Virus record (IMG/VR): IMGVR_UViG_3300005264_000065
Coordinates: 1-35,173 of that record
DNA: 35,173 nt
Source of the DNA: a virus
Strand: one strand, 5' to 3'
The notes beneath the pieces were generated by a model, which was given only the letters and a program-made list of their open reading frames with translations, had not been told where the DNA came from and did no database searches. Position 1 is the stretch's first letter; every line of letters begins with the position of its first letter. This document shows, one piece after another, positions 7,299 to 35,173 of the stretch. Made by a program: the position numbers and the translations under genes.

Positions 7299-8804
7299 AT
7301 GGCTGTTGATACCCCATGTGTGCAATATAAGACTATGGCAGAGGAGGGGAGTTGGGATCTCTGTCTGGATCTTCTCGGTGGAACTCCTGCAATGCGAGCC
7401 GCCCGGACAAAATGGCTTCCGCAGGAACCTGATGAGAAAACAAAAAATTATAACGTGCGCCTGAAGCGCTCTTTTCTTAATAACGCGTATAAGGACACGA
7501 TCGAGAAGTATGTTGCTCGGCCTTTTTCCCGGCCATCGATTTGGAACATCAAAGGCAATGATGAGGCCTTGGCGGCGATCGATCCGATCATGGATAACAT
7601 GGATGGCGAAGGACAGCATCATCAGGCGTTTGCAAAAGAGGTATTTGATATGCTTATGCGTTGGGGAGTTGCCTCGACGTTCGTTGATTACCCGGCTATT
7701 GACAATCCGGATGAAACCACCCGGGCCGATGAACAGGCTGAAAATCTTCAGCCTTTATGCAGTGTGCTCAAGACTCCGAATGTGATCGGATGGGAGGCCC
7801 AGAAGCAGAAGAACGGAACGGACAAGCTCATCGAGGTGCGCGTTAAAGAGACGCACATCGAGGATACCAATAACTGGGAGCAGGTGGTCTTTGATCAGAT
7901 CCGCGTGATCACTCCAGTGGGCTATAAGCTCTGGAAGCGCGAGAAGCGTGGAGGCAGAACGAGCAACAACGAAGAGTATGTTCCCAATGGTGGCGGCACC
8001 TTCGTTATGGCAGGCAAGGCCCCGGACGAGATTCCGATCGTTACCGGATACACAAAGAAGACGGGGATGATGACATCTCTTCCTCCTTTTCTTGAGCTTG
8101 CATGGGTGAATCTTGAGGACTGGATCAGCAGGAGCGATCAGAAGAATATCCTGCGCTTTGACAGGTTCGGGATACTCGTTGGATCTGGCTTCACAGAGGA
8201 CGAGGTGAAGAAGGGTCTGACGGTCGCCCCGACGCAGGCGATACTTTCAGAGAACCCGGAAGCGAAGATGGAACGTGTCGAAACGAACGGGCAGCCTGCC
8301 GAGAACGGATGGAAGGATATTCATGACATAAGCGAGCGTATGGAGATACTCGGAATGGCGCCGATGATCCAGAGGCTGGCCAATGTCAAGGCCACCGGGA
8401 TTGCGGCGAACGAGAGCAAGAGCCGGTCGCAGATCGAAAGCTGGATTGAAGAGGCGAATCTGGTCATGCGCAAGACCATGCAACTGATCCTTGCTTGGAT
8501 GGGTTTTGAAGTGGCTCTCGATGATATCGAATACAATATTTATCAGGACTTCGTATTCTCGACCCAGCAGGCTCAGGAGGTCAAGGACGTCATCGAGGCC
8601 CGGAAGATGGGCGATATTTCGCATCGGACGTTCATTCGCGAGATGCAGCGCTTCGGCCGTCTTTCTGACAAAGTTGATCCGGATGAGGAAAAGGCGCTGG
8701 TCGAGGTTGAGAAAGGCCGGGGCCTGAGTTTATTTAATAACGCGCAGACGCAACAGGGCGCAGGCGCAGGACAGCCAATAGGTGAAGTTGGAGCTATGAT
8801 CTAA
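7299..8804 (+). CDS. portal protein (DUF4055 type), 501 aa
   Basis: Forms the dodecameric channel at the packaging vertex. The N-terminal part, with GGTPAMRAARTKWLPQEP, YNVRLKRSFLNNAYKDTIEK and the following ARPFSRPS, follows the DUF4055 pattern used by a group of siphovirus portals. The middle carries the clip/stem helices and the C-terminus an acidic stretch and a Gly/Gln tail (QTQQGAGAGQ). Placement between TerL and the MuF gene fits. AGGAG lies upstream of the ATG. Its stop overlaps the start of the MuF gene (TAATG). Confidence 0.9.
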   Translation: MAVDTPCVQYKTMAEEGSWDLCLDLLGGTPAMRAARTKWLPQEPDEKTKNYNVRLKRSFLNNAYKDTIEKYVARPFSRPSIWNIKGNDEALAAIDPIMDNMDGEGQHHQAFAKEVFDMLMRWGVASTFVDYPAIDNPDETTRADEQAENLQPLCSVLKTPNVIGWEAQKQKNGTDKLIEVRVKETHIEDTNNWEQVVFDQIRVITPVGYKLWKREKRGGRTSNNEEYVPNGGGTFVMAGKAPDEIPIVTGYTKKTGMMTSLPPFLELAWVNLEDWISRSDQKNILRFDRFGILVGSGFTEDEVKKGLTVAPTQAILSENPEAKMERVETNGQPAENGWKDIHDISERMEILGMAPMIQRLANVKATGIAANESKSRSQIESWIEEANLVMRKTMQLILAWMGFEVALDDIEYNIYQDFVFSTQQAQEVKDVIEARKMGDISHRTFIREMQRFGRLSDKVDPDEEKALVEVEKGRGLSLFNNAQTQQGAGAGQPIGEVGAMI

Positions 8805-10375
8805 TGCCGTCAGTCAATGAGGATTTAATCGAGAGCGCATTTATAGCCGAGATCCGCCGTCGAGGCGCGACTGACGCTATGGTGCTCGAGGTACAGCGTG
8901 TTATACGCGATGAGGTCCTCCCGGATATAGCGGAGGCGCTCAATCGTCTGCCGTTTGACAAACTGACAGCGACAGACGCTCGGTTGATTTCTATGCGCAA
9001 CGCGATCACAGACGCGATGGGCTGGGATCGTGTGTCAGGACCTATGAAATCAGGTGTGCTTGATATGGCGAATACGGAAGCGATTGAGGCGGCACAGGAG
9101 CTTTCCGACGCGATGCCATTCCCATGGGAATTCCTTGTGCCGTCTCCGGATCTGCTGATGAATACGGTATTCAACACTCCATTCAACGGCAAGATTATGG
9201 GAGAATGGTTCGGACAGCTCGAGCAGACGACGCAGGACGGCATATATGAGGCATTCAGGATTGGCATGATCGAGGGGAAGAGTATCCCTCAGATGACAAA
9301 AGACCTTCTCCTGAGATCCTATGATGCCTTCACGACTACCGGGATCAAGCGCGTGTTTGATAACGCTGAGGCCGTTGCCCGGACGGCTGCCAACTATGCC
9401 TCGACACAGACGAGGCTGGTATTTGCCGAAGCGAACAGTGATGTAATCAAGGGCGTGCAGTATATAGCGACGCTCGACGATCGTACCAGCATGATCTGTA
9501 TGTCGCTGAACGGGACAGTGTATCCGATCGACGATATCGGGGCCATTCCTCCGCAGCATTACAACTGCAGGAGCACGCTCGGATATGTTACTAAGAGCTG
9601 GGAGGAGATGGGCCTTGAAGGCCGCGAGCCTCAATTCGTTCAGCGTTACCGCGAGGAAGGCGCCTCCCGTATGGATGGCAAGATCGCCGCACCGCCTGAC
9701 TTTGATACGTGGCTCAAGACACAGCCTCAGAGTGTGCAGGACAAATTGCTCGGTCCTGTCCGTGCCGGTATGTGGCGATCTGGCAAGGTTAAAAATATAT
9801 CTGACTTTGTTGGTAAAGACGGTCAGACGATCCTGCTTAAGGACTTCGGCCTGAACCGTGCCGGGAATCCGATTAAGCCCGGTGACGCTGTGCTTGAATG
9901 GAAAGCCACCATGACGGCAAAGGAGGCCGAGCAATGGGTGGAAAAGAGCGCATTCAAAGATCCGCTCTATCACGGGACAGGAATCACCGAGCGTGGAGTT
10001 GTTACTGATCCGAAGGCGCTCGCGGCCCGGATCGATTCGATCACGACAAACGGGTTCAATATCAGCACGGAAAACAACGGCCGCATGCTTGGTGATGGTG
10101 TTTATTTTACTCCGAGCAGAGATACGGCCTCTCGATACGGTACGGTTTTGGAAACGCGAATAAACGTCAAGAATGTTGCGAGTTATACTTACGACGAATG
10201 GTCCCAGCAATACCGGAGGATCGTTCGCGAGATGAAAAAGGCAGGCCTTAAGCTTTCAACGACTGAGCGGATTAATTGGTGGGCGGCGAATAATGGAATT
10301 GACGCGATTAATATCACCACCGGCCTTCCGCAGATGGTGGTATTCGATCCTAAGAATATAACGGTGATACAATGA
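8804..10375 (+). CDS. MuF minor head protein fused to an ADP-ribosyltransferase-like domain, 523 aa
   Basis: Residues 1-260 are a Mu gpF/SPP1 gp7-like head morphogenesis protein, ending in the typical TLDDRTSMICMSLNG (223-237) and PPQHYNCRSTLG (249-260), a likely Cys/His metal site. From about 385 to the end the protein changes: YHGTG (389-393), GDGVYFTPS (430-438), ASRYG (442-446), GIDAI (498-502) and VVFDPKNI (512-519) form the pattern of an ADP-ribosyltransferase/PARP-like fold with His390 and Tyr434 as candidate active-site residues; the third catalytic residue is not clear. MuF proteins with toxin-like C-termini are known in temperate phages and are thought to be delivered with the DNA. 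Whether this one is active is inference. Confidence 0.9.
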   Translation: MPSVNEDLIESAFIAEIRRRGATDAMVLEVQRVIRDEVLPDIAEALNRLPFDKLTATDARLISMRNAITDAMGWDRVSGPMKSGVLDMANTEAIEAAQELSDAMPFPWEFLVPSPDLLMNTVFNTPFNGKIMGEWFGQLEQTTQDGIYEAFRIGMIEGKSIPQMTKDLLLRSYDAFTTTGIKRVFDNAEAVARTAANYASTQTRLVFAEANSDVIKGVQYIATLDDRTSMICMSLNGTVYPIDDIGAIPPQHYNCRSTLGYVTKSWEEMGLEGREPQFVQRYREEGASRMDGKIAAPPDFDTWLKTQPQSVQDKLLGPVRAGMWRSGKVKNISDFVGKDGQTILLKDFGLNRAGNPIKPGDAVLEWKATMTAKEAEQWVEKSAFKDPLYHGTGITERGVVTDPKALAARIDSITTNGFNISTENNGRMLGDGVYFTPSRDTASRYGTVLETRINVKNVASYTYDEWSQQYRRIVREMKKAGLKLSTTERINWWAANNGIDAINITTGLPQMVVFDPKNITVIQ

Positions 10376-21113: not shown

Positions 21114-21579
21114 AAAGGAAAGCGAGATCCTCCGGGATGCGATCGTTATGCATGCGAAGTCGTTGCTTGACGCTCCGTATGTCTGGAACGGAGTGCAGCC
21201 GGAAAGAGGATCTCACTGCGCGACGTTCGGTCTGAGACCATATCAGATGGCTGGTCTGATCCCGGAAGGTACAAGGCTTCCCATACATCATCGGGACTGG
21301 ATGCTCGGCAAAGACGTCGATCCAAATGAATTCAGGGATTACATCTTAAGGTTTGGAATTGAGGTCTCGTTCGATGAACGGAGGCCAGCAGATCTCGTGA
21401 CATTCTTCTTCCGGGGAATAGAGAGTCACGTCGGAATAATAACAAATGTGAATCCGGACTGGTTTATACATCAACCAAGTGGAGCTTCTGTTAAATTTCA
21501 GAGGCTTCTCGAAACTGGATCGCTCAAATCAATTTACCGGCATAAAAAGATAGTGGAGCTTGAAAATGGCGGGTGCTAA
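21088..21579 (+). CDS. NlpC/P60 family tail-tip peptidase, 163 aa
   Basis: Probably cuts peptide bonds in peptidoglycan during DNA injection. PYVWNGVQPERGSHCATFGL places the catalytic cysteine at 44, ESHVGII gives His114 and FIHQPSG gives His128, a Cys-His-His arrangement. The usual sequence around the cysteine is DCSG; here it is HCAT, an unusual variation. The length is normal for this GTA-like tail-tip peptidase. It overlaps both neighbours, so is co-translated with the hub proteins. Confidence 0.8.
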   Translation: MCQDLSRCKKESEILRDAIVMHAKSLLDAPYVWNGVQPERGSHCATFGLRPYQMAGLIPEGTRLPIHHRDWMLGKDVDPNEFRDYILRFGIEVSFDERRPADLVTFFFRGIESHVGIITNVNPDWFIHQPSGASVKFQRLLETGSLKSIYRHKKIVELENGGC

Positions 21580-24500
21580 CGAAAACGTAAAGGCTGCCGG
21601 TCGGCTCGGACTGACGTTCGGTCTCGGCGCGTGGCTCGGAGTTCCGGGATATATAGCCGGTGGAGCTCTTGGCGCAGTTCTATTTGCTCCCGATCCACCG
21701 GAGGCGCCAGATCCGTACACGGCTCTGAATATGAACACGGCTGATGAGGGAGCGAGTTCTCCGCTCCATTATGGCATCTGCAAGGTCAAAGGGAATTTTA
21801 TATACAAAGGTCCTTTGAGAACCCGGAAAGTCGAAGAAGGCGGCAAGGGCGGCCAGAAGACTGTCACTGGATATAAATATTGGACGTGGGCTGCGCTCGG
21901 ATTGGGTCACGGAGTTCTCGACGTCACGAGAATGTGGAAGAACGACGATATCATGGTCCCGGAGGGAGACTCGACGATCAATATATATCGAGGGACTCCG
22001 GAGCAGACAGTCGATCCGGACTGGGACTCGAGAGCCGAAGACGTCGTTCCTCTGAAGCGTCAGGCGTATTCTTATTTCAATCAGTTCTATCTCGGAGAAG
22101 ACAACAACACTTTTCCGACTATATCGAGCGAGGTTCATCGCTTCCCATGGGATGAAGCCATGGATTCAATTCCTCCGTATATACTAAATAGGGTCAGCGA
22201 ACAGACACTCGGTGGGAATAAGATTCTCCGGGATAAATTTGATAAAATATATACACTCACTCAAACAGAAATGAAAGTCTACAATGCGAATTGGACTCTC
22301 CAGAGGACTGTCGATTTAACGAATCTTAATCTGACATCTTATGCCGGTACATGGGATGCCTGCATAACTTATCAGAATAATCGGCCTTACATAAACTTGA
22401 GCTACAATGATGGTCTCGACGGGAAGCTGTATGTAATACGATGGGCAGCCGATCGCGGTAAATTAACGACTGAGAAAACGGAAACGACTCGAGGCCAATA
22501 TACAAAAACCGAGATCTATGATTTTGGAACCGGAATCACGAACACGAGAATCAGATCGAACAGCCAGTACATTTTTATAGCAACGGATTATTTTGCTTCG
22601 GCAGTTGATTTGTTTAAGGTGACTTTGAACGGCCAGACGCTTCTTGCGCATTATGATTATTCGGCAGTGTTTGATATAGCAGCTATGGGAGATTTTGCGG
22701 TCAACGAGGATTTTTGCTTCTGGAATAACAACGGAGGAAAAACATCGATAATCGATTTTAATGGAAACGTGCAAGACACTCTTGCGGCAAGTTCCGATTG
22801 GGCTCCTCAATATATAGTCCCTTTGATCGGCTCGAGCTGTATTATGGGATTTACTCTCGGCGTTCAGGTTAGTCCTCCAGACAAGGATTATGATCGGATT
22901 CAATTCGCTATATACGATCGCGACACAGGCTTGTTCGAGACAGTTACGCAGAACGAGATCGAGATTGACGAGAGCTGGTGGACAGGTCATGGGAGCTCTC
23001 CGTTCTTCGGGACTCAGGGAACCATGATGTGCCATGAGGGAGCGAATGGAACCGTGTATTTGACCGGCCACGACAATCTCGGAAATTATTACACTCTTGA
23101 GCTTGTTCTCGACGCGAATCCTGCCCAGATTATATACGACCTTTTCAAGCACACGAAGGGGTTTGATTTGACTATGGTTGACGAGGCTCAACTCGAGACA
23201 GTTGGAAATACCTGCTTTGATAATAGGATCGGAATGTCGTTCTCCGTTCTCCGGAAGAGAAACGTCGGAGCGGTTATTCGTGATATACTCGGACATCTTC
23301 AGGCACATCCGTATCAGACTGCTGATGGGAAATTCGGATTCTTCATGCCGAACCCGAACGACGCTGTTATTGACTCGATCGAGGAAGAAGACATTCTCTC
23401 GATAAAGAATCAGGGAGCTCCTGACATGACGATCGTCTCCTCGAGTATGAAGGATATAGGGCTCTGCCCGAACCGCCTGAATGTCGTTTATGAAAACAGA
23501 TTAAATCAGTATAAAAAGGACGCGACATTTCAGCTCGACGATATGCTTGCGCAAGATCTCGATGGCGAGATAATCGAAGAGAACTTAAATTATCAGATGT
23601 TCAGCAATCCGGCCGTTATATCAAAGATGGCATGGAAGGCATGGAAAATCGGACGATTCCAAAACAAGCTTCACGTTCTCGTTCTCAATGGAAGATGGCT
23701 CGGGATAAGACACGGTCAGGTATATACCATAAATCTTCCGGACGAGAACCTGAACAGCGCCAGATGCCGTGTTTTCTCCGTGGACGATCCTCCGGTTGGA
23801 ATCGATGCAGGAGTGACTGTCACTTTCATGATGGACGATGAATACTTGACCTCGTATGAAGAGATCGATTATGACGCTTCAATATCAGAGGATACGTCAG
23901 TTGGCCCACCCGAAGAAGTCGTTCCGCTTCTCTGGGAGGAGGACGCGAGATATAACAATGATGTTTATACGATGGCATTCAGCGCAATCCGGAACAGCGA
24001 GGCGACGGCATATTGCGACATCTGGATCAGTCTCGACGCTCCGGATAATTTCTTTTATGCGAAGAGGCTGACTCAATTCGGGAATGTTGGAGATCTGGTC
24101 AACGACGTCGTGAAGCGTCACAGGAAGTTGACCGTGAACACTGACGATTACGGTGGAAGTTCGTTCTCGGCATACACGAGGACGAACCAGAGGAACAATC
24201 TCTCGTACTGCCTCGTTGGGGAGATCAGCGACGACTTCGATCTCGCAATGACGAATATGGAATTCCTGACATACCGAGACGCGGTGGCCTCTGGATCAGA
24301 TATAATCCTGAAAGATTGTGTGAGGGGAAAAGATTATACTATGTCGAAGCCCCATGCGGTCTCCGACGAGACGGTCGTGATTCACGTCGGGATATCATAT
24401 AACAAGGTTGAAATTCCTTCTGAGTGGATCGGAAAAAAGATATATGTCAAATTCGTTCCGTACAATCTCCGGGGAGACGGCCTCGACATAGACGAGATAG

Positions 24501-27500
24501 ATACGTACGAATACACGATCATGGGCTGGACGCGTAAGGCCACCCACGCGGATCGGGTCCAGATAGAAGACAGCGTTCGAGGCGAGCTCGGTCACAGGAC
24601 GAAGACCGGAGATTCAGACGTGAAAGTTATCTGGCAGTACACGAACAGAAACAGCGGCATGGGTTCCGGGACTCTTGATACTTGGGAGTGGCACGGATGG
24701 CAGGCAGGGGATGTGGATGACTATGACATAATAGTTTATCAGGCAGGAACCGGAAACAATCCTCAGGAGGATTACAATTTAAACTGGGAGGCAGCCGACC
24801 ACGCAGGCGGATGGTTGACTGCCGAGATCGCGTCCGGGCAAGGCGGAAGCGAGGGAGAATGGTACACGTTTGACAACACCGGGAAGGCGAAAAAGGCTCA
24901 AGCTGACTCGCTCGACAATTGCGCAGTTGTTTTTATGCTCGTTGAGGATACGATAGCGGGTGAAGAAGGTTTATTCCTGAAGGCCGGGAACTGGTGGAAG
25001 GACACGTGGGGGCTCGATCCGAGTAAGATCTATTATCTCGATCAGAGCACTCCGGGAGCGTGGACGACTGTTCAGCCAACCTCCGGATTAATAATCGTTC
25101 TCGGGCGATGCGATGAGGACACGGAGACTTTCCACATCGCAGAAGGCGGAGGCGGAGGAGGCGGAGGCCTCAACGACCACGCGACTTTATCGAACCTCGC
25201 ATGGAGCGTTGCCGGGCACACGATGGACACGACGCTTTCAATGAATAGCAACCGAATAACGCAGGTCACACAAATAACTATGAATCCGCAAGGAACAAAT
25301 TCTGACGTAATTCAAATCAGTCAAGGTTCGTATGTTGCTAATCCGAGTTTTTCATATCATGGAACGTTTCAGTATATAAACAAAACCGGCGGCGCGACTA
25401 CTACCGCTTGGGAAATGACCGGTCATTATGTTGAGCTCAGACAATCAGATGCTGTAAATACGATGGGATATATTTATGGGAATCATAATATCCTGCGTGC
25501 GTATGAGAATTATGGAAATGGCTCAGATGCCATGACCGGTATGTGGAATGACTTTTTTATTGAGACCGGAAAAACCGTGACTGGTCGTGTTAAGGGAACT
25601 TATTTCCGCTTTCATCCGGAAGGAACCGTCACCCTTCAGACGTACGGAACGCTTAACTGGATTGGGCCGTCGAGCGGTGGAACTCTTCACGATATATACG
25701 GGAGTTATCAGAATATAATCTGCGCATCTCTCGGAACGATTACCGGAGATGTGTACGGTCATTATTCAGATATGAATATCAGCGGAACGAACAGGCTCTC
25801 AGGGAACGAGTATGCTTTCTTCGCGAAGAGCACGAGTACAGGTGTGACAGGGACTTCTTACGCATACTATGCTGAGGGAACGGCATTCGATTATTTTCTG
25901 TACGGCTCCGAGGATACGGTACCGTCGTATCTTGCCGGTATGCTTCAGGTCGATAACACGATATGGTCTGAAGGGACGACCGGCGCGACTCCGACGAGCG
26001 GAGCCGGGACGCGGTTTATGTGGATACCTTCAAAGCAGGCAGTGAGGGCAGGCGCAGTTGACTCGTCTCAATGGGACGACGCGAACATCGGGCAGGGTTC
26101 TTTCTGCTTCAGTCGTTATAGAAGCACAGCATCTGGTGCCGATTCTTTCGTTACTGGTTGGAATTGTTCTGCTTCGGGAACCTACGGCGTGGCAATGGGA
26201 TATTATGCCGTTTCAACAGGCAATGGCGCAAGTATCGCTCTTGGTTCACAAGTCATTGCTGGCTCATTCACTTCAATCGCAATCGGGCAGAATATCACGG
26301 CCGGGACCAGCGCGAAATGTTTCGGGAAAGGTATTACTTGCTTTACAGACTGTACGATGATTGGTTTCAATCTTGTTTCAAATACCTGTTACAGAGCTGT
26401 TTATGTTGGGCGAAATATAACAGGGGCCAGCGGAACGAATGACGACTGCTATGGGTTCGGACAGTTTATCGGATTTATAACCGGTGACGACAACTGGGTT
26501 TTTGGAAAAGGTGTTGATGCCGGTAATCCGCTTATGAGCGTTGGAAGCAACCAGCTCGTAATCGGTATGAATTCGAATCTGGCCTCAATTATTATAGATG
26601 GATCATCTGCTGGAATAGGAACCCCGGCTGACATAAACTTCCTCGGTGATATGACGTTCACGGGAGCAGCCGTATTTACTGGCGGAATCTCGGCACCACT
26701 GACTGGTTCCGGGACTAACTCGGAAGCGTACGGAGTTGGATCGTCAGCAACAGGAAACAATTCTCTTGCCGTCGGATATAACGTCACGATGTCCGGCATA
26801 CAGTGTATCGGTTTCGGGAACGATCTTCAGGCGACAAACGGAAATTGCTTTTTGTTCGGTTTTGATCTTTCCACGTCTGGCGTCGAGACGGTTCTGGTCG
26901 GTGGGAACATACATACTGCTGGCGCGAACGGAATCGTTGCGATTGGAGAATACCTGTCGGGTATTGGGCAGAATACGGTCGCGCTTGGTTCTGACTTAAC
27001 GGGAACGGTTGTTTCGACGGATTCTGTTTATCTCGGTTCTGCTGGAGTAGCAACTGGAACCCTCGCTCGAAATGTAGCCATCGGATATCAGTTTACTATT
27101 TCCGGCAGTGACGGCGTCGCGATAGGTGAGAACGTAAATCTTGCAGCTGATAATTCAATCGCAATCGGTGCTGACGGAAACGTTACTGGTCCTCGCTCAG
27201 TCGGAATCGGAAAAGGAACTTCAGTAACGATCTTCGATGCCACGGCAGTTGGGGAGAACACGTCGATCGCCTATCAATACAGTGTGGCGTTCGGGGCCGA
27301 TGCGACGGTTACCGGAATTGGCGGAACCGCACTCGGTACAGCAACTTCGGTTGCGGTGTCGGCCGTGGCCGTCGGTTATGACGCTGCAGCAAACCACGAC
27401 TCAGCAATAGCAATCGGGCGCGGGGCCACAACTACCCAAGCGAACGAAATGGTAATTGGCGCGACTTCGTATGAGATCGATCATCTGAGGTTCATAACTA

Positions 27501-28414
27501 CCGGGGATTATGTAAGCGTGTATTCTGGATTCGGGTGGGTGGACAAGAACATATATATTGGAAGCAATCCGAATGGATACACGACGGATTATCCGAACAA
27601 CTTCTTCCGTGCGGAGGCTTTATCAAAAACGATCAATGGAAGCGCGAACCTTTTCAGTTTTATTGTTACCATGAACGGAGGAACCGGAACGGCGAACGAT
27701 CACTGGACCAACTGGAGCGGTCAGATCACGATGCAGAGCGTTGGTGGGCAGCACGGAAACGTGCGAGGGATTTATCAGTCCCTGATCATACTCGAGGGAG
27801 ATTTTGGAGACGTCTCGACTTCTCAGTATATAGCCGGTCAATACCTGTCCACGCAATTTAACGAAGTAACGGCTCTGAAGCTCTGGGGATCTCTGTACGG
27901 AATAAGGAATTATATAAACGCCTCGGATGGGGAGATTACAGACGACGTATTCGGCCATCATCTCGAGGGAACGGCTATCGGAGGAGTCACCCTCGGAGGA
28001 TCTTCTTATGGTGTCTATCTGGACCTTCACACGAGCTGGGATTGGGCAGTGTATGTCGCGACGAATGTTAAGAGCTTTTTCGGCGGAAGTGTTGAAGTTC
28101 TTCTTTTGAATTTGACCGATAGTACAGAGCTGACAATTTCTACCGGCGCAATAGTAAAAACACAGGGCTGGCACAGGATTGATACTGAGGGCGATGCGGC
28201 ATCCGACGATCTCGATACTATAAGCGGAGGTCAGGCTGGAGATAGGCTGATTCTTCAGGCCGAGAATGATGCCCGGACTGTTGTTATAAAAGACGGAACC
28301 GGAAATATTCAATGTGCAGGAGATTTCAGCCTTGACAATACACAGGACACGATAGAGCTTATATATGATGGTTCGAATTGGCTCGAGCTGTCTCGAAGCG
28401 ATAATGGCGCATAA
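21566..28414 (+). CDS. J-like central tail hub fused to a receptor-binding fibre, 2,282 aa
   Basis: Start at ATG 21566 is supported by GGAG about 8 bases before; a TTG at 21560 is in frame but unneeded. The N-terminal ~900 residues resemble lambda J/GTA hub proteins (APDPPEAPDPY, HYGICKVKGNFIYKG, later IRDILGHLQAHPYQTADGK). Eight consecutive glycines near residue 1195 mark a hinge. Beyond it lies a fibre: a beta module (about 1280-1470), a segment of about 430 residues (1530-1965) with repeated S.A.G...V.G units like the YadA head (SVGIGKGTS, SVAFGADAT, AVAVGYDAA, AIAIGRGAT), a second copy of the beta module (about 2015-2180), and a C-terminal domain ending IELIYDGSNWLELSRSDNG, common in phage fibres. 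It should recognise the host. Confidence 0.9.
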   Translation: MAGANENVKAAGRLGLTFGLGAWLGVPGYIAGGALGAVLFAPDPPEAPDPYTALNMNTADEGASSPLHYGICKVKGNFIYKGPLRTRKVEEGGKGGQKTVTGYKYWTWAALGLGHGVLDVTRMWKNDDIMVPEGDSTINIYRGTPEQTVDPDWDSRAEDVVPLKRQAYSYFNQFYLGEDNNTFPTISSEVHRFPWDEAMDSIPPYILNRVSEQTLGGNKILRDKFDKIYTLTQTEMKVYNANWTLQRTVDLTNLNLTSYAGTWDACITYQNNRPYINLSYNDGLDGKLYVIRWAADRGKLTTEKTETTRGQYTKTEIYDFGTGITNTRIRSNSQYIFIATDYFASAVDLFKVTLNGQTLLAHYDYSAVFDIAAMGDFAVNEDFCFWNNNGGKTSIIDFNGNVQDTLAASSDWAPQYIVPLIGSSCIMGFTLGVQVSPPDKDYDRIQFAIYDRDTGLFETVTQNEIEIDESWWTGHGSSPFFGTQGTMMCHEGANGTVYLTGHDNLGNYYTLELVLDANPAQIIYDLFKHTKGFDLTMVDEAQLETVGNTCFDNRIGMSFSVLRKRNVGAVIRDILGHLQAHPYQTADGKFGFFMPNPNDAVIDSIEEEDILSIKNQGAPDMTIVSSSMKDIGLCPNRLNVVYENRLNQYKKDATFQLDDMLAQDLDGEIIEENLNYQMFSNPAVISKMAWKAWKIGRFQNKLHVLVLNGRWLGIRHGQVYTINLPDENLNSARCRVFSVDDPPVGIDAGVTVTFMMDDEYLTSYEEIDYDASISEDTSVGPPEEVVPLLWEEDARYNNDVYTMAFSAIRNSEATAYCDIWISLDAPDNFFYAKRLTQFGNVGDLVNDVVKRHRKLTVNTDDYGGSSFSAYTRTNQRNNLSYCLVGEISDDFDLAMTNMEFLTYRDAVASGSDIILKDCVRGKDYTMSKPHAVSDETVVIHVGISYNKVEIPSEWIGKKIYVKFVPYNLRGDGLDIDEIDTYEYTIMGWTRKATHADRVQIEDSVRGELGHRTKTGDSDVKVIWQYTNRNSGMGSGTLDTWEWHGWQAGDVDDYDIIVYQAGTGNNPQEDYNLNWEAADHAGGWLTAEIASGQGGSEGEWYTFDNTGKAKKAQADSLDNCAVVFMLVEDTIAGEEGLFLKAGNWWKDTWGLDPSKIYYLDQSTPGAWTTVQPTSGLIIVLGRCDEDTETFHIAEGGGGGGGGLNDHATLSNLAWSVAGHTMDTTLSMNSNRITQVTQITMNPQGTNSDVIQISQGSYVANPSFSYHGTFQYINKTGGATTTAWEMTGHYVELRQSDAVNTMGYIYGNHNILRAYENYGNGSDAMTGMWNDFFIETGKTVTGRVKGTYFRFHPEGTVTLQTYGTLNWIGPSSGGTLHDIYGSYQNIICASLGTITGDVYGHYSDMNISGTNRLSGNEYAFFAKSTSTGVTGTSYAYYAEGTAFDYFLYGSEDTVPSYLAGMLQVDNTIWSEGTTGATPTSGAGTRFMWIPSKQAVRAGAVDSSQWDDANIGQGSFCFSRYRSTASGADSFVTGWNCSASGTYGVAMGYYAVSTGNGASIALGSQVIAGSFTSIAIGQNITAGTSAKCFGKGITCFTDCTMIGFNLVSNTCYRAVYVGRNITGASGTNDDCYGFGQFIGFITGDDNWVFGKGVDAGNPLMSVGSNQLVIGMNSNLASIIIDGSSAGIGTPADINFLGDMTFTGAAVFTGGISAPLTGSGTNSEAYGVGSSATGNNSLAVGYNVTMSGIQCIGFGNDLQATNGNCFLFGFDLSTSGVETVLVGGNIHTAGANGIVAIGEYLSGIGQNTVALGSDLTGTVVSTDSVYLGSAGVATGTLARNVAIGYQFTISGSDGVAIGENVNLAADNSIAIGADGNVTGPRSVGIGKGTSVTIFDATAVGENTSIAYQYSVAFGADATVTGIGGTALGTATSVAVSAVAVGYDAAANHDSAIAIGRGATTTQANEMVIGATSYEIDHLRFITTGDYVSVYSGFGWVDKNIYIGSNPNGYTTDYPNNFFRAEALSKTINGSANLFSFIVTMNGGTGTANDHWTNWSGQITMQSVGGQHGNVRGIYQSLIILEGDFGDVSTSQYIAGQYLSTQFNEVTALKLWGSLYGIRNYINASDGEITDDVFGHHLEGTAIGGVTLGGSSYGVYLDLHTSWDWAVYVATNVKSFFGGSVEVLLLNLTDSTELTISTGAIVKTQGWHRIDTEGDAASDDLDTISGGQAGDRLILQAENDARTVVIKDGTGNIQCAGDFSLDNTQDTIELIYDGSNWLELSRSDNGA

Positions 28415-29715: not shown

Positions 29716-30072
29716 ATGGACAACTGGATAATACAACTCGGAGTCGGTGGTATATTTGCGGTTCTGATAATAAGAGAATTCGTCAATCTTTTGGCGAAGA
29801 TGAAGGGGAACGATTCCAAGCCGACAGGAACGAACCCTCAGGTCTGTCAGGACATAAAATCGATAACGATCGACACGAACGATAAAGTCAAGGAGATCCA
29901 TTCCATCCAAACGCAAAAGGATTCTGACGGTCTTCCGCTCGCGTACTTCCCGAGGTCGATAGTGAAGAGTCAAGAGAAAATAGCAAGAGATCAAGCAATT
30001 ACCGCTCAGCACATGCAGACAATAGCTGACGCGGTTTCTGAACTTAAAAAAGAAAGGAGTCACAATGGATGA
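29716..30072 (+). CDS. small membrane protein, holin-like candidate, 118 aa
   Basis: One N-terminal membrane helix (about 4-20, WIIQLGVGGIFAVLII) followed by REFVNLLAKMK and a long polar, helical tail. The layout resembles BhlA/UviB-type holin-like proteins with an N-terminal helix and charged tail, but sequence identity is not evident. AGGAGG precedes the ATG. Overlaps the next gene by 8 bases. Confidence 0.6.
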   Translation: MDNWIIQLGVGGIFAVLIIREFVNLLAKMKGNDSKPTGTNPQVCQDIKSITIDTNDKVKEIHSIQTQKDSDGLPLAYFPRSIVKSQEKIARDQAITAQHMQTIADAVSELKKERSHNG

Positions 30073-30283
30073 GAAGAAATCATTTAAGGACAAGGTAATC
30101 GGAACGCTCGAGAGACTTTACGGGAGCACGGAGAATGCGCTGAAGGCCGTGACATCCAAGCGCGCGTATGTGATTGCGGCGCTCGTCTATCTCGGCATCA
30201 GTGAAATGGACTGGAGGAAATTCCTCGGTCTCTGCGCTCTCGGATGCGTGTTTATCTGGAGCGAGACTATAAGAAAGAACTGA
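30065..30283 (+). CDS. small membrane protein, holin-like candidate, 72 aa
   Basis: Two short hydrophobic stretches: about 34-46 (AYVIAALVYLGI) and 53-66 (FLGLCALGCVFIW), with charged ends. Size and layout fit a small holin with two helices. It is the last gene before the terminator. AAAGGAG precedes the ATG and it overlaps the previous gene by 8 bases. No separate endolysin is visible, so the lysin is either the NlpC/P60 protein or outside the window. Confidence 0.6.
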   Translation: MDEKKSFKDKVIGTLERLYGSTENALKAVTSKRAYVIAALVYLGISEMDWRKFLGLCALGCVFIWSETIRKN

Positions 30284-30304
30284 CAGCTGCTGTCGGTTCG
30301 TGTG

Positions 30305-30345
30305 ACGGGTCCGGGGAGGTCGGCCACTTCGGACCCGTTTTTTTG
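30305..30345 (+). terminator. rho-independent terminator of the structural operon
   Basis: Stem ACGGGTCCG (30305-30313) with CGGACCCGT (30330-30338), nine perfect base pairs, loop of 16 bases, followed by a run of seven or more T. It lies about 20 bases after the last lysis gene and should end the long late transcript. Confidence 0.92.
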
Positions 30346-30350
30346 TCTTT

Positions 30351-30379
30351 TTACCAAAATTCCTCAAATGCCATATAAT
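30351..30379 (+). promoter_or_regulatory. possible weak promoter after the terminator
   Basis: TATAAT at 30374-30379 is perfect; the box 17 bases upstream is TTACCA, matching 4 of 6. Close to the terminator and 75 bases upstream of the stronger promoter, so possibly a tandem promoter or chance. Confidence 0.35.
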
Positions 30380-30453
30380 ACGGCAAAAATAGCCTTTTGC
30401 CCCTTTCTATTGATCAAATAAAACGATATGTTGATCTTTTTTGAAGAAGGTCC

Positions 30454-30481
30454 TTGACAGGGGTTTGGCGCCGCGTATAAT
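30454..30481 (+). promoter_or_regulatory. strong sigma70-type promoter of the right-hand operon
   Basis: TTGACA at 30454-30459 and TATAAT at 30476-30481, both exact consensus, with a 16-base spacer. Transcription should start near 30488. It is the only consensus promoter I see and sits between the late terminator and the operon carrying the AAA ATPase, so this operon is probably expressed early by host RNA polymerase (inference). TTGATC direct repeats at about 30409 and 30431 could be operator half-sites. Confidence 0.88.
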
Positions 30482-30499
30482 CCCTGTGTCGAATTTAAT

Positions 30500-30604
30500 G
30501 GGGTCCGATAATGAAAAAGAATCAACGAAAAATAAGGCAGGCTGAAACGGGAACCGCTCTCACCGCAATGGTGGAATCGGACCCCAATCCTGTTTCAGTC
30601 TGCC
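30500..30604 (+). ncRNA. structured leader with two crossing inverted repeats
   Basis: Pair one: GGGGTCCGAT (30500-30509) with ATCGGACCCC (30576-30585), exact. Pair two: 30536-30552 with 30588-30604, 15 of 17 positions. They cross (A, B, A', B'). Only two bases separate A' and B', too few to bridge a 10-base-pair stem, so the two stems are probably alternatives rather than a single pseudoknot. It lies at the very start of the transcript from the strong promoter, a natural place for a switch. It does not carry a hammerhead core. Function unknown. Confidence 0.6.
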
Positions 30605-30624
30605 GCCATTTTCCGGGCGATTGA
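30511..30624 (+). CDS. possible leader peptide ORF, 37 aa
   Basis: ATG at 30511, about 23 bases after the expected transcription start, with GGGG at 30500-30503 as a weak ribosome-binding site. The peptide starts basic (MKKNQRKIRQAETG). The frame runs through segments B, A' and B' of the crossing inverted repeats, so translation would change which stem can form, as in attenuation. May equally be chance. Confidence 0.3.
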   Translation: MKKNQRKIRQAETGTALTAMVESDPNPVSVCRHFPGD

Positions 30625-30706
30625 ACCGGTCAACGGTTATGAGGCCGGGGAAGAGCTGATCATATCCGCCAATCACATTAACAACCAGATATAAGGAGGA
30701 AATATC

Positions 30707-30901
30707 ATGCAGGCATACATAATCGAGAAAAAATTGAGTGATGGAAGCAAAGTTCATGATGTTGTTGTTAAAGATGGCAATGAATCCATTGTATTCGATT
30801 GCTTTGAGAGCATGGATGAGGCGGAGGATTTTATGGTCATGCTCGCAGAACGAGCGAAGGTCGATATTGATCTGGTCAATATCGTTCGGGTTCATGGATA
30901 A
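30707..30901 (+). CDS. hypothetical protein, 64 aa
   Basis: Small acidic protein (MQAYIIEKKLSDGSKVHDVV, then DCFESMDEAEDFMVMLAERA), probably a beta-beta-beta-alpha fold. AAGGAGG precedes the ATG. First solid gene of the right-hand operon and directly upstream of the first hammerhead. Not recognised. Confidence 0.75.
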   Translation: MQAYIIEKKLSDGSKVHDVVVKDGNESIVFDCFESMDEAEDFMVMLAERAKVDIDLVNIVRVHG

Positions 30902-30923
30902 AATGAATCACACAATCACAACA

Positions 30924-30985
30924 GTCGAAACACCCGGGGCCGCCCGGGTGTCCGCCGGGACCGACCGCCCGGCGCTGAAGATGGC
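30924..30985 (+). ncRNA. hammerhead ribozyme, type II, copy A (core with one extra base)
   Basis: GAAA at 30927-30930; stem III 30930-30938 with 30943-30951 (nine pairs, loop GCCG); cleavage triplet GUC ending at C30952; stem I 30953-30959 with 30968-30974 (seven pairs); CUGAAGA core at 30975-30981. The open stem II is three pairs (30924-30926 with 30983-30985) only if U30982 is left unpaired, so this copy may cleave slowly or not at all. It sits 22 bases after the 64-aa gene stop. Downstream are a T7 tract and a ribosome-binding site for the next gene. Confidence 0.75.
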
Positions 30986-31024
30986 AGGTCAAACAGCGCA
31001 TGCTTTTTTTCAAGGAGGGTTGAT

Positions 31025-31294
31025 ATGGTATGCGATACATTTGCGCGTGAAGAACGCGAGAGGCGCGAACGCGCCCGGCAACTGGCTGAGCTCGAGGCTC
31101 AGCTGAAATCCAAATCCGCACAGATCGTGCGGAATGGGAACAGGGTCTCCATTGAGGGATGGAGCAGTCGCGGAGGATGGTGTGATGCCTGCGCGATCAA
31201 CAAACTGCGTCAAAGCAGCGATGCCACGATCCGCATGATGGTCGCCACTGCGGCACCGGCAGGTCAGGCATTGGTATTCGGACATGGTCATTAA
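31025..31294 (+). CDS. hypothetical protein with GGWCDAC motif, 89 aa
   Basis: N-terminal 30 residues form a charged coiled-coil-like helix (ERERRERARQLAELEAQL). The second half has IEGWSSRGGWCDACAINKL (Cys53/Cys56), then SDATIRMMVATA and the ending VFGHGH. I do not recognise the family; one CxxC and terminal histidines could bind metal. AGGAGGG is 6 bases before the ATG, preceded by TTTTTTTC. Directly upstream of the AAA ATPase, 15 bases away, so probably a functional partner. Confidence 0.7.
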   Translation: MVCDTFAREERERRERARQLAELEAQLKSKSAQIVRNGNRVSIEGWSSRGGWCDACAINKLRQSSDATIRMMVATAAPAGQALVFGHGH

Positions 31295-31309
31295 TCAGGA
31301 GGGTGAAAA

Positions 31310-32833
31310 ATGACTAACTACATTAATGAGGTGGAAATCGCAATGCGCGCCAAGACGGGGATCGTCTGGTTGCGCACGCCTGAGGAGGTGCGCGTCGAGC
31401 GCGCGCTGGTTCCGATGGCGGACAAGCTCGGATATGAGCTCTGGACTTGGACGGTAACGAAGGGAGTCGAGAAGGTCGGGCAGGTAGATCAGGTCCGCCG
31501 CGACGAGACTCGGCCGCTTGACGGGGCCATGCAGTGGCTTCGGGATTATGACAAGCGTGCGATCCTGCTCGCCAAGGATGGCGGCACATGGCTCAATGAG
31601 CCGATCGCGAAGCGCGCGGCCCGGGATATGCATCTCGAGCTCCAGAGCATGCCCAAGGAACGGGCAAAGCAGATCATCATCGTCGATCAGGCAGCTCCCG
31701 GGGAGGGACTTGACCTCTTCACGCTGATCGAATCGAGCCTCCCGGACCGGGCGGAGATGAGCGACATACTTGATGGCTTCCTCGATTGGGCGCCGGATGG
31801 TGCTGTCGCGGACGTCAAGAAAAACGGCAATCGAGATGATCTCATTAGCGCGATGCTTGGCCTGACAGCAGATGATGCCAGCAATGCCCTTGCCCGGTCT
31901 CTGGCTGCCGTCGGTATTTTCGATCCCGGCCTTGTCGCCAAAGAGAAGGCCCGGGTAGTTAAGGGTTCCGGCCTTGAATGGTACGATCCCGATCCGCGAG
32001 GTCTGTCGGCCGTGGGCGGCATGGATGAGCTCAAGGGAGCATTGGTAACGAGGCGCCGTGCTTTCTCGCAGGATGCGCGTGACTGGGGTCTTCCGGCTCC
32101 TAAGGGTTTTCTGCTGGTCGGCATCCCGGGATGCGGCAAGAGCCTGACGGCCAAATGCATCGCGAACGCATGGGGCCTTCCATTGCTCCGGATGGATGTT
32201 GGATCGCTTTTCGGCAAGTATGTCGGGGAGAGCGAGGGCAAGATCCGGACTGCGCTCCAGACGGCCGAGACGATCGCGCCCTGCATCCTTTGGGTGGATG
32301 AGATCGAGAAGGCTTTTGCACAGGGCGGAGGTGATACCGATGGCGGAACCAGCACACGGGTATTCGGCACCTTCCTGACTTGGATGCAGGAGCGCAAGGA
32401 AGGAGTATTCATCATCGCCACGAGTAATGATATTTCCAAACTTCCTCCTGAATTCCTCCGGGCAGGTAGATGGGATGATCTTTGGTTCGTTGACCTTCCC
32501 AATGAGACCGAGCGTGAACAGATCGCAAACGTCATGGTGGCCAAGTTCGAGCCTTGCGGCGATGTAGACATCAGCATCGTCTCGGACGTCAGCGATGGCT
32601 ATACAGGGAGTGAAATAGAACAGGGCTTCATCGATGCGATGTATACCGCCTTCGAGGACGGCGCCCGGCAGGTAACAGACGACGACATCGTCAAGGCCTT
32701 GCGCAAGCGTGTTCCGCTTTCAACTACCATGCGAGAGAAGATCGAGGAACTGCGCAAATGGGCACAGGGACGCGCACGCATGGCTTCGATTTCTGAGACG
32801 GCCGCCAAACAGTCTGGCCGCTCGATTGAATAA
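31310..32833 (+). CDS. AAA+ ATPase, Ycf46-like, 507 aa
   Basis: N-terminal domain (about 1-140: YINEVEIAMRAKTGIVWLRT, ELWTWTVTKG) is that of Ycf46-like proteins of cyanobacteria, plastids and phages; the C-terminal half is an AAA+ module with Walker A GIPGCGKS at 271-278, pore loop FGKYVGESEGK at 301-311, Walker B CILWVDEIE at 325-333, sensor 1 ATSND at 370-374 and second-region-of-homology arginines 384 and 387. Such ATPases form hexamers that remodel or unfold proteins; the phage role is not known. AGGAGG lies just upstream of the ATG. Confidence 0.9.
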   Translation: MTNYINEVEIAMRAKTGIVWLRTPEEVRVERALVPMADKLGYELWTWTVTKGVEKVGQVDQVRRDETRPLDGAMQWLRDYDKRAILLAKDGGTWLNEPIAKRAARDMHLELQSMPKERAKQIIIVDQAAPGEGLDLFTLIESSLPDRAEMSDILDGFLDWAPDGAVADVKKNGNRDDLISAMLGLTADDASNALARSLAAVGIFDPGLVAKEKARVVKGSGLEWYDPDPRGLSAVGGMDELKGALVTRRRAFSQDARDWGLPAPKGFLLVGIPGCGKSLTAKCIANAWGLPLLRMDVGSLFGKYVGESEGKIRTALQTAETIAPCILWVDEIEKAFAQGGGDTDGGTSTRVFGTFLTWMQERKEGVFIIATSNDISKLPPEFLRAGRWDDLWFVDLPNETEREQIANVMVAKFEPCGDVDISIVSDVSDGYTGSEIEQGFIDAMYTAFEDGARQVTDDDIVKALRKRVPLSTTMREKIEELRKWAQGRARMASISETAAKQSGRSIE

Positions 32834-32855
32834 CTTTAACCTAAAGGAATATAAA

Positions 32856-33737
32856 ATGAAAAACACACAGTATATCAGGGACGGATACCTTGTAGTCGGG
32901 GCCATCAGCCAGAGTGGATGCGTCAGCTATACGCACAAGGATCGTCAACAGGCGATCAATGGTGAGAGACTCGACGCAGACTGGAACACGCATAAAATCG
33001 TCATAAGCGTCAAGGAACAGCGCGCGCTCGGCTATACCCGGAACCTGCTGACGAAGAAGATCGCGAATCTCGGAACGGCTATTAATAATTTCGGGATCTT
33101 CGTTCCCAAGGATCGCGCGGATGAACTCGAGGCCGCGATCAGCGTCGCCCGGAACGGAGTCTGGGAATATAACGCCAATGCCAAATATACCCGGCTGGCT
33201 TTCAACTTCTCGGTTTTTGAGATTTCCGGAGGCGATGAACGAGTCGCCCGGGCGCTCTACGATAACACTGTCTCCTTGCTCGAAAACGTCAACGAATGCG
33301 TGGAAAAGGGTGACATCAAAGGGCTCAGGTACGCGCTGGGACGTATGAAAGGGATTAGCAATATTCTTCCCAAGGATACAGGCGCCAAACTGGCAGAGCA
33401 GATCAAGGCGGCCCGGGAGGCGGCGAAAGCGGCGGTTAAGGCGGCCGAAGAAGGTGGAAGCGAAAGCCAGAAAACGAAGAAGATCATCGATGCGCTTAAG
33501 GAAGTCAAGGCCGCAGGTCTTCGCGCGTCTCTTGTGGAAACAATCGACGAAATCGATAAACGGGTAAACGATACAGCATTTGTTCCCAACGCAGATCTTG
33601 TTAAGGCTCGCCAGATAGAGGCCGAGATCAAGGCAGAGATGGCGGAGCCGAAAAAGGCGAAGAAGCGTGATGTTGAAGCCAAACCGAAAAAGACATCCTC
33701 GAAGAAGAAGGCCGCATCCAAGCGTGAGATTGAATAG
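32856..33737 (+). CDS. hypothetical phage protein with Lys-rich tail, 293 aa
   Basis: Start at ATG 32856 (MKNTQYIRDGYLVVGAISQS), with AAAGGA about 7 bases before; the open frame further upstream lies inside the ATPase gene. N-terminal 140 residues look folded; residues about 150-230 are helical and Ala/Lys-rich; the last 40 are almost all Lys, Ala, Ser and Glu, typical of nucleic-acid binding tails. Its TAG stop is the start of hammerhead copy B. Function unknown; possibly ATPase-associated by neighbourhood. Confidence 0.75.
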   Translation: MKNTQYIRDGYLVVGAISQSGCVSYTHKDRQQAINGERLDADWNTHKIVISVKEQRALGYTRNLLTKKIANLGTAINNFGIFVPKDRADELEAAISVARNGVWEYNANAKYTRLAFNFSVFEISGGDERVARALYDNTVSLLENVNECVEKGDIKGLRYALGRMKGISNILPKDTGAKLAEQIKAAREAAKAAVKAAEEGGSESQKTKKIIDALKEVKAAGLRASLVETIDEIDKRVNDTAFVPNADLVKARQIEAEIKAEMAEPKKAKKRDVEAKPKKTSSKKKAASKREIE

Positions 33738-33797
33738 CCGAAACGCCCGGAGAGATCCGGGCGTCCGTCCGGGATGGTTTCCGGGCGCTGATGAGGC
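33737..33797 (+). ncRNA. hammerhead ribozyme, type II, copy B
   Basis: C-GAAA core at 33739-33743; stem III 33743-33751 with 33756-33764 (nine pairs) closed by a GAGA tetraloop of the GNRA class; GUC with cleavage after C33765; stem I 33766-33772 with 33781-33787 (seven pairs, one G-U); CUGAUGA at 33788-33794; open stem II GCC (33737-33739) with GGC (33795-33797). All conserved core bases are present. The first base of stem II is the last base of the upstream TAG stop codon. The downstream product would carry stem I in front of the ribosome-binding site of the 102-aa gene. Confidence 0.92.
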
Positions 33798-33830
33798 AGA
33801 CCCTCTATTGGCCGATATAAGGAGTAGATA

Positions 33831-34139
33831 ATGCCAAGGAAGAAGAAAGAGGAAGTCGAGCTCGAGAAAGAGCGAGAGAAAGGAAGCGGCAATCTGTTTC
33901 CCGGGATGAAGGTTCCCAAGGATGTCGAAGCCCTTGATCGCAAGATGAAGGAAGCAGAGCTCACGCGCAAACAGGCAGGCGCCGTCGAAAAGGAGGCCCG
34001 GGAGAACCTTTGTCTCCTGATGGAGAAAAAGGACTTCAGGCGGTTTCAGATCGAGATCGAAGGAAGCGACTACGAATTCGAGCTTGATACGTCTTCGAGG
34101 GTGAAATCGAAGAAGGTCCATGACGAAGTCGAGGAATAG
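33831..34139 (+). CDS. hypothetical charged protein, 102 aa
   Basis: Lys/Glu-rich N-terminus (PRKKKEEVELEKEREKG), then a long helix (about 33-70) and a small beta region (FRRFQIEIEGSDYEFELDTS). Fits a coiled-coil-containing protein; not recognised. AAGGAG precedes the ATG. It is flanked on both sides by hammerheads: copy B upstream and copy C starting at its stop codon. Confidence 0.7.
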   Translation: MPRKKKEEVELEKEREKGSGNLFPGMKVPKDVEALDRKMKEAELTRKQAGAVEKEARENLCLLMEKKDFRRFQIEIEGSDYEFELDTSSRVKSKKVHDEVEE

Positions 34140-34206
34140 CCGAAACATGCGCGTGGCGATCCTGCGTGCATGTATGCCGGGGACGAGCATCCGGTACTGA
34201 TGAGGT
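34139..34206 (+). ncRNA. hammerhead ribozyme, type II, copy C
   Basis: C-GAAA at 34141-34145; long stem III 34145-34156 with 34162-34173 (twelve pairs, three G-U); GUA triplet with cleavage after A34174 (H17 = A is allowed); stem I 34175-34180 with 34191-34196 (six pairs, one G-U, loop of ten); CUGAUGA at 34197-34203; open stem II 34139-34141 with 34204-34206. As in copy B, stem II starts with the last base of the upstream TAG. Stem sequences differ from the other copies but the pairing is kept, including a matched U-A change at the base of stem I. Confidence 0.9.
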
Positions 34207-34244
34207 GGCTCGATTCTGTGATCTGCGATACGGAGGGCAAAAAA

Positions 34245-34658
34245 ATGAATACATGCATTGAAAAGGCCAAAGCGGCAATTGAGGCTGAAGAGAACGGGGA
34301 CTTTTCCAAAGCGGCTATTCTGTGGGGAGAGGCGGCCCAATTGGCCGGGACAGCCAGTGAGCGGCGAATGTATGCCGAAACAGCAACAAATACCCACCTG
34401 AGAGCGCGTAAAATCGCCGGACAGGCCGTTACCGCACAGGATGCGCCCCTGAATACTACCGATCCTGCAAGGCCTTATACGGCCAAACAGCGGACGCGGT
34501 GGGGAAAGGCTAAAACCCGGATCATCAAATGCGCTAATTTTATACACGGCGAGCTTTCTGATCCGGATCTGGGCAACGACGCGAGGGCGAAGCTTGAGGA
34601 CGCTCGTGCTTTGCTTATCGATGCCACCAACCGAATAATGGAAGCAATCAACGGTTGA
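34245..34658 (+). CDS. hypothetical helical protein, 137 aa
   Basis: Start ATG 34245 (MNTCIEKAKAAIEAEENGDF) with GGAGGG about 9 bases before. An upstream in-frame ATG at 34170 falls inside hammerhead copy C, so the longer version is unlikely. Mostly alpha-helical; FSKAAILWGEAAQLAG resembles a TPR-like helix pair. A central segment is Thr/Ala/Pro-rich, the C-terminus helical. Its TGA stop is followed directly by hammerhead copy D. Not recognised. Confidence 0.7.
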   Translation: MNTCIEKAKAAIEAEENGDFSKAAILWGEAAQLAGTASERRMYAETATNTHLRARKIAGQAVTAQDAPLNTTDPARPYTAKQRTRWGKAKTRIIKCANFIHGELSDPDLGNDARAKLEDARALLIDATNRIMEAING

Positions 34659-34725
34659 GGCGAAACAGGGGAGGCCCTCCCCTCCCCTGTCCGTGCGGAG
34701 CTGATCGGCCGCGCGCTGAGGAGCC
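34659..34725 (+). ncRNA. hammerhead ribozyme, type II, copy D
   Basis: C-GAAA at 34661-34665; stem III 34665-34674 with 34681-34690 (ten pairs, loop of six); GUC with cleavage after C34691; stem I 34692-34698 with 34709-34715 (seven pairs, one G-U, loop of ten); CUGAGGA at 34716-34722; open stem II GGC (34659-34661) with GCC (34723-34725). It begins on the base directly after the TGA stop. The stem II pair order is inverted relative to copy B (GGC/GCC against GCC/GGC), which is covariation. Downstream is the same T7 plus AGGAGGG arrangement as after copy A. Confidence 0.92.
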
Positions 34726-34756
34726 AGATCGTAACTTTTTTTCAGGAGGGCAAATT

Positions 34757-35173
34757 ATGGCAGATTGCAAACTGACGCATTCGAGTATGAGTTGCGCCAA
34801 GACCTGCCTGAGGATGTATTACTACAAATACATTCTCGGACTGGTTAAGCAACGCATCGACACGCCGATGTATGTCGGTGGACTTTTTCATGAGGGGTTG
34901 GAGCTTGGCAAGATCCCGCCCAAACCCAAAGAACCGGAATGGCTTGGCCTTGATGGTGATTACGAAGGGGACAGGTATAAGTGGGAGTGTGATTATCAGC
35001 TCGCATGCGCGATGGTGAACGCCTACCATGAATACTGGGCCGATCGTGCGATCGAAATAGTCGAGCGCGAATGGGAATTCGCGATGCCGATCGCCAATCC
35101 GGAGACGACCGGGAAATCCCGGACGTTTGAAGCGGCTGGGAAAATTGACAAGATCGTCGAATTACCGGATGGC
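34757..35173 (+). CDS. PD-(D/E)XK nuclease family protein (RecB/Cas4-like), 3' end outside window
   Basis: 139 codons are visible, open to the window edge. LTHSSMSCAKTCLRMYYYKYILGL (about 6-29), then VGGLFHEGLELG (40-51) and GKIDKIVEL near the end form the N-terminal pattern of RecB/Cas4-like PD-(D/E)XK exonucleases: an S.S....C...YYYKY helix, G..FH..LE, then the first acidic residue (GKID). In phages these often pair with recombination proteins. AGGAGGG lies 6 bases before the ATG. The catalytic E-x-K lies beyond the end. Confidence 0.8.
   Translation, partial: MADCKLTHSSMSCAKTCLRMYYYKYILGLVKQRIDTPMYVGGLFHEGLELGKIPPKPKEPEWLGLDGDYEGDRYKWECDYQLACAMVNAYHEYWADRAIEIVEREWEFAMPIANPETTGKSRTFEAAGKIDKIVELPDG

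Follow-up and report, generated by a model that had tools for sequence, protein, structure and literature searches.

Four type II hammerhead ribozymes lie within 3.8 kb of a single operon in the viral record IMGVR_UViG_3300005264_000065, all on the same strand and each between two open reading frames (ORFs). The window analyzed here is this one entire IMG/VR record, 35,173 bases in length. We propose, at a probability of roughly 0.8, that the four ribozymes cut the operon message into gene-sized, insulated mRNAs with hairpin ends. The basis of this proposal is the sequence and structure of the ribozymes, their placement between genes, their confinement to one strand, and the covariation of a pseudoknot.

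Identification of the four ribozymes

The window was searched with cmscan against Rfam 15, once at full length at threshold and once over positions 30001-35173 with all matches listed by E-value (4227 families). RF02276 (Hammerhead_II) matched four sites on the positive strand, here called copies A to D: A at 30923-30993 (41.8 bits), B at 33736-33805 (58.0 bits), C at 34138-34214 (31.1 bits), and D at 34658-34733 (33.5 bits). Copies A and B exceeded the gathering score of the family, 37 bits, which is a curation threshold and not a structural feature. In the 5.2-kb scan across all Rfam families, the E-values of C and D were 2e-3 and 4.7e-4, respectively. A single-family search of the whole record with RF02276 returned the same four sites and nothing else, with E-values of 7.7e-7 for D and 3.2e-6 for C. 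Scores in the range of these two copies are common among the members of other phage arrays. Weak matches to microRNA families, far under their cut-offs, were dismissed as chance.

The sites were also located with a motif scanner, which demands GAAA, a closed stem III, NUH, a closed stem I, and CUGANGA in that order. It detected exactly four motifs in the window, all on the positive strand and none on the negative; 7.03 Mb of dinucleotide-shuffled sequence yielded no motif. Neither the RF02276 search nor the scanner placed a hammerhead elsewhere in the window. An earlier examination of the letters by a model (the sequence-only reading) had reported four type II hammerheads with cuts after 30952, 33765, 34174, and 34691. 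Both methods agree on the four sites, and residue 17, after which cleavage is predicted, falls at exactly these positions: C 30952 in A, C 33765 in B, A 34174 in C, and C 34691 in D.

Structure of the four copies

All four copies contain the conserved core, namely CUGANGA, GAAA, A15.1-U16.1, and NUH, in the type II order. In copy A, stem III spans 30930-30951, stem I spans 30953-30974, and CUGAAGA occupies 30975-30981. The same elements are found at 33743-33764, 33766-33787, and 33788-33794 (CUGAUGA) in B, at 34145-34173, 34175-34196, and 34197-34203 (CUGAUGA) in C, and at 34665-34690, 34692-34715, and 34716-34722 (CUGAGGA) in D. Stem III consists of 9, 9, 12, and 10 pairs in A to D, the counts given by the sequence-only reading. 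Its counts for stem I (7, 7, 6, and 7) held for A and D; once G-U pairs are included, stem I has 9 pairs in B and 7 in C.

The stems differ from copy to copy, with pairing and core preserved, as had been pointed out before. Pair III-4 is C-G, C-G, U-A, and G-C in A to D, and pair I-5 is G-C, C-G, G-C, and C-G; pair II-2 is G-C in D as opposed to C-G in B and C. Stem II is open and has two to three pairs. It forms directly in B (GGC/GCC), C (GGU/GCC), and D (GCC/GGC), and in A only with one bulged U, as G-C, G-U, and C-G. The minimum-energy folds of the four copies had z-scores of -1.5 to -2.7 against shuffles, only moderate values that are expected because the sequence is GC-rich; they were not used as evidence.

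Most type II hammerheads share a hallmark, a pseudoknot that joins loop I to the tail after stem II (PMC3088659). By inspection and with a script, such a pseudoknot of four to five pairs was found in every copy: GACC/GGUC in A, GGUUU/AGACC in B, CGAGC/GCUCG in C, and UGAUC/GAUCG in D. In B, the pairing reaches loop bases that the script counted as stem. The RF02276 model holds no pseudoknot pairs, and the pseudoknots therefore constitute independent support for the assignment. Among 194 relatives, a loop and its own tail partner scored 10.9 as opposed to 7.54 for shuffled partners (standard deviation of the shuffled means, 0.13). Between copy B and its ortholog in the nearest relative of the operon (L005, described below), both sides of the pseudoknot are changed, from GGUUU/AGACC to GAUCU/AGAUC, and pairing is kept. 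The sequence-only description included neither the pseudoknot nor an extra U in copy A, to which we return in the Discussion.

Placement in the operon and proposed mechanism

As the sequence-only reading had it, each copy stands between two cistrons. All of these genes are on the positive strand. Copy A separates a 64-aa ORF (30707-30901) from an 89-aa ORF (31025-31294). Next come a 507-aa AAA+ ATPase (31310-32833; PF00004, phrog_8638) and a 293-aa ORF (32856-33737; phrog_11021), whose UAG stop codon overlaps the first letters of ribozyme B. Copy B precedes a 102-aa ORF (33831-34139), copy C a 137-aa ORF (34245-34658; a weak match to phrog_2227), and copy D a PD-(D/E)XK nuclease gene (34757-35173; PF12705, phrog_1218 exonuclease) that is truncated by the end of the window. 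The upstream stop codon lies 26, 3, 3, and 4 nt before GAAA in A to D, respectively, and the downstream start codon 43, 36, 41, and 34 nt after CUGANGA.

Transcription would start at a sigma-70-type promoter at 30454-30481 on the positive strand (TTGACA-16 nt-TATAAT, 12/12 consensus). Each hammerhead would fold during synthesis and cut after residue 17, splitting the message into a unit of about 2.8 kb with the 89-aa ORF, the AAA+ ATPase, and the 293-aa ORF, a 0.41-kb unit with the 102-aa ORF, a 0.52-kb unit with the 137-aa ORF, and a nuclease unit. Hammerhead cleavage leaves a cyclic phosphate upstream and a 5'-OH downstream. An upstream product would thus keep its full reading frame, and the GC-rich hairpin of stem III, shortly after the stop codon, would form its 3' end and bear a 2',3'-cyclic phosphate. 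At its new 5' end, a downstream product would carry a 5'-OH and the stem I hairpin, followed by a standard leader that runs to the Shine-Dalgarno site. The gain would probably be separate, protected, insulated mRNAs from one promoter, with stability and translation set for each gene. The processing of a polycistronic message that the sequence-only reading put forward appears right in kind, supported by the placement of the copies and by published clusters.

Cutting from B to C would free a 409-nt RNA with one complete ORF, and the ends left by flanking ribozymes are precisely those joined by RtcB. A host ligase such as RtcB could then close gene-length RNAs excised with a 5'-OH and a cyclic phosphate into circular mRNAs. 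However, no RtcB gene was found in the window or in 25 further hammerhead-bearing viral records, as opposed to 9 of 14 control genomes that have one; the ligase might still come from the host. Perreault et al. report that spliced or circular products were sought and none were found (PMC3088659). We regard circular mRNAs as very improbable.

Survey of viral type II hammerheads

We surveyed IMG/VR with three pattern scans that differed in the stem II sequence, together with the motif scanner; the figures given here cover the matches listed. At least 617 non-redundant type II hammerheads were found in at least 279 viral loci. Arrays were common among the matches listed: the motif scanner counted 12 copies in 5.4 kb in L204 and 10 copies each in L321, L333, and L377. 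Covariance-model counts were 10, 9, 9, and 11 in G021, G027, G035, and G067, respectively. With records of 5 to 12 copies this readily found, the four copies of the window are not the exception that they had been taken for. In cellular genomes, only 21 stretches turned up, some of them by chance, which is too few for statistics. In 130 of 131 loci with multiple ribozymes, all copies were on one strand, as a role in the transcript demands.

In 279 of 599 cases (47%), the upstream stop codon ended 3-9 nt ahead of the G in GAAA, as opposed to 2.4% at shifted positions. The distribution of these distances had a sharp lower edge and a mode of 3-4 nt. Because the first pattern scan fixed a G before CC and was thereby biased to UAG, two further stem II patterns served as a check. 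Adjacency of the stop codon held for stem II types GCC, GGC, GAC, and GTC. Thus, it was not made by the search pattern. On the other side of the ribozyme, a start codon with a Shine-Dalgarno site was found 20-45 nt after CUGANGA in 339 of 579 cases (59%; control, 5.7%). The median distance was 28 nt (quartiles, 23-33 nt), and it was 29 and 28 nt for ribozymes with and without an adjacent upstream stop, respectively.

One of the large arrays (L333) is that of the Streptomyces phage Janus, NC_054660.1 (region 40306-50166, L408). Its right-hand operon contains 11 type II hammerheads, all on the coding strand and all matched by RF02276, with E-values up to 0.0039. Every gap of at least 79 nt holds a hammerhead (10 of 10), with two in the gap of 365 nt, and the 11 gaps of at most 45 nt are all without one. 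The start codon follows CUGANGA by 25-41 nt in ten cases. Where a single ribozyme fills the gap, the distance from the stop codon to GAAA is 4 to 51 nt. The GenBank feature table lists coding genes only in the array region and no ribozyme, and a literature search turned up no paper on this array.

The narrow start-side distances bear on a reading in which the ribozymes chiefly serve the downstream gene, giving it a uniform insulated 5' leader (a 5'-OH, the stem I hairpin, and about 28 nt to the start codon), with the splitting upstream as a by-product. RiboJ, a synthetic hammerhead insulator, acts in this way: placed upstream of a gene, it fixes the 5' end of the mRNA. The copies in the window resemble it in lying upstream of a gene whose mRNA 5' end they would fix, and differ from it in being natural, of type II, and located in operon gaps rather than directly behind a promoter. 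The start-side distance is unaffected by stop adjacency in the survey, and in Janus it varies less than the stop-side distance. However, the stop side is also tight in about half of the cases, and the minimum room for a ribosome-binding site could by itself fix the downstream distance. A service mainly to the downstream gene is a possibility that we entertain tentatively.

The footprint of a terminating ribosome extends some 10 nt or more past the stop codon. In about half of the 599 cases, as in copies B, C, and D, the stop codon precedes GAAA by 2-9 nt. This ribosome could then cover stem II and GAAA, and cleavage would wait until the upstream gene is no longer translated. The array would then sense translation. 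However, copy A is far from its stop codon, and compact genomes would give the same picture, with a ribozyme nearly filling the gap at both sides. The tight stop spacing fits translation coupling and equally fits compact gaps; by sequence alone, stop adjacency would not be distinguishable from plain genome compactness. We hold such coupling to be rather unlikely. It is similarly doubtful that phages generally use type II arrays to place a ribozyme in nearly every real operon gap, between terminating and initiating ribosomes, yielding single-gene mRNAs with a timing set by upstream translation. Within our preferred reading, the cutting of the message into gene-sized mRNAs, the main point may be the downstream leader, the upstream 3' end, or translation coupling, a choice that sequence would not decide.

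Relatives of the operon

Among 50,697 phage records (INPHARED), the operon DNA had no blastn match. The 102-aa protein and the nuclease had no tblastn match in phages, and the AAA+ ATPase had only distant relatives in INPHARED, at about 35% identity. In IMG/VR, 20 relatives were found via the ATPase, the nearest of which, L005, shares 76% ATPase identity. Two of the window's sites are occupied in this relative: an ortholog of copy B is found at 8750-8819 (50.5 bits) and, ahead of the nuclease gene, a second hammerhead at 9190-9260 (29.9 bits).

Relatives differ in which junctions carry a ribozyme, as might be expected if the motifs were decaying or neutral relics of mobile ribozymes with no present function. 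However, stems and pseudoknot covary with the core kept, the copies of an array share a strand, and the placement in gaps holds over hundreds of loci. Relics are thus scarcely probable. The ribozymes are kept as structures where present, yet gained, lost, or moved between relatives.

A relative of the 137-aa ORF (its C-terminal part) is found before the 102-aa ORF in L005 (8530-9288), as opposed to after it in the window (33831-34757). Ribozymes are located at gene borders there in both. A cassette-like reshuffling of gene-plus-ribozyme units is possible, on the one comparison of the window with L005.

Other features of the operon and the window

The preceding operon ends in an intrinsic terminator at 30305-30344 on the positive strand (ACGGGTCCG...CGGACCCGT, followed by a T run), which contains a 9-nt perfect inverted repeat. 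A promoter similar to that of the hammerhead operon, TGGACA-16-TATAAT, is found at the equivalent place in L005.

Just behind the promoter, a leader RNA on the positive strand (30499-30604) contains two interleaved helices, 30499-30509/30576-30586 and 30536-30552/30588-30604, of 11 and 17 pairs, which form a possible H-type pseudoknot. The same topology with a largely different sequence is present at 5380-5485 in L005, and none of 100 shuffles reached the fold of the window or that of L005. The leader structure was not seen at the head of the operon in more distant relatives. It may be a regulatory RNA without an Rfam family. In both the window and L005, a possible Shine-Dalgarno site of a short ORF (37 aa from about 30511) falls within the first helix, in its 5' arm.

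At 21560-28414, after the tail genes, the window contains a 2284-aa ORF whose C-terminal part is rich in AIG.......A repeats. By eye, these resemble the head repeats of trimeric autotransporters. The ORF probably encodes a fused tail and receptor-binding protein.

Discussion

The copies in the window share with RF02276 type II hammerheads the order GAAA, closed stem III, UH, closed stem I, CUGANGA, and an open stem II of 2-3 bp, as well as the pseudoknot and the phage context. They depart from the family in three respects, and these weigh against our proposal. First, copies C and D fall below the gathering score; the sequence-only reading had named Rfam covariance models as one check, and all copies matched, but only A and B above 37 bits. 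Second, residue 17 of copy C, in the triplet GUA, is A rather than C, a variant present in 15 of the 617 surveyed relatives. Third, copy A has an extra U (30982) between A9 and stem II. A residue is inserted at this place in 36 of the 617 relatives (about 6%), in 32 of them a U; the insertion is therefore a recurrent variant and not a defect of copy A alone. The section of PMC3088659 covered here does not include a CUGANGA-U-GGCA insertion among the variants it discusses.

Further points on the same side concern function. No hammerhead was found at the A site of L005, and none at all in another relative, L006. Ribozymes are thus not at every junction in relatives, and their function is therefore dispensable or quickly replaced. 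That the four copies cut we infer from the activity published for the family, and 4 of 18 consensus hammerheads tested in 2011 were inactive in vitro (PMC3088659). The benefit of cleavage is likewise a deduction.

Perreault et al. described, in 2011, multiple hammerheads that flank single genes or short gene blocks in prophages, among them clusters in Clostridium scindens and Azorhizobium caulinodans and a triple array around ardA in Agrobacterium tumefaciens (PMC3088659). They proposed that long phage transcripts are processed into operon- or gene-length mRNAs; three such arrangements cleaved in vitro and one in Escherichia coli (PMC3088659). The sequence-only reading was therefore mistaken in describing the hammerheads of bacteria and phages as known singly: its observation is confirmed, and its interpretation is right in kind and overstated in novelty. 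The window is like those clusters in having several ribozymes around single genes or short blocks, and the same mRNA-processing proposal applies. It differs in that one operon holds four ribozymes of a single type and that their placement from stop to start codon was measured; other surveyed phages reach 11-12 copies.

Self-cleaving ribozymes are enriched near one another and near genes of Mu-like phages, for a reason that was still called unknown in 2023 (PMC10085705). The ribozymes of the window are likewise near each other and near phage genes, although here the genes encode an AAA+ ATPase, a PD-(D/E)XK nuclease, and small ORFs. Stop codons and translation are unmentioned in Perreault et al. 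(PMC3088659). Stop codons are also unmentioned in a 2017 review and in the 2023 paper (PMC10085705), both of which call the role of the ribozymes open. Thus, the arrangement is already known in phages and proves far commoner and more regular than described. Against the literature covered, which mostly lacked subscription papers, what our measurements add is a set of regularities within a kind already known.

Why phages carry hammerheads is an open question, of which the window provides a clean example. Arrays of 4 to 12 ribozymes are easy to find in phages and follow strict rules of strand and placement. With the survey, and with a cultured phage, Janus, that carries 11 hammerheads, the question is therefore directly testable in the laboratory.

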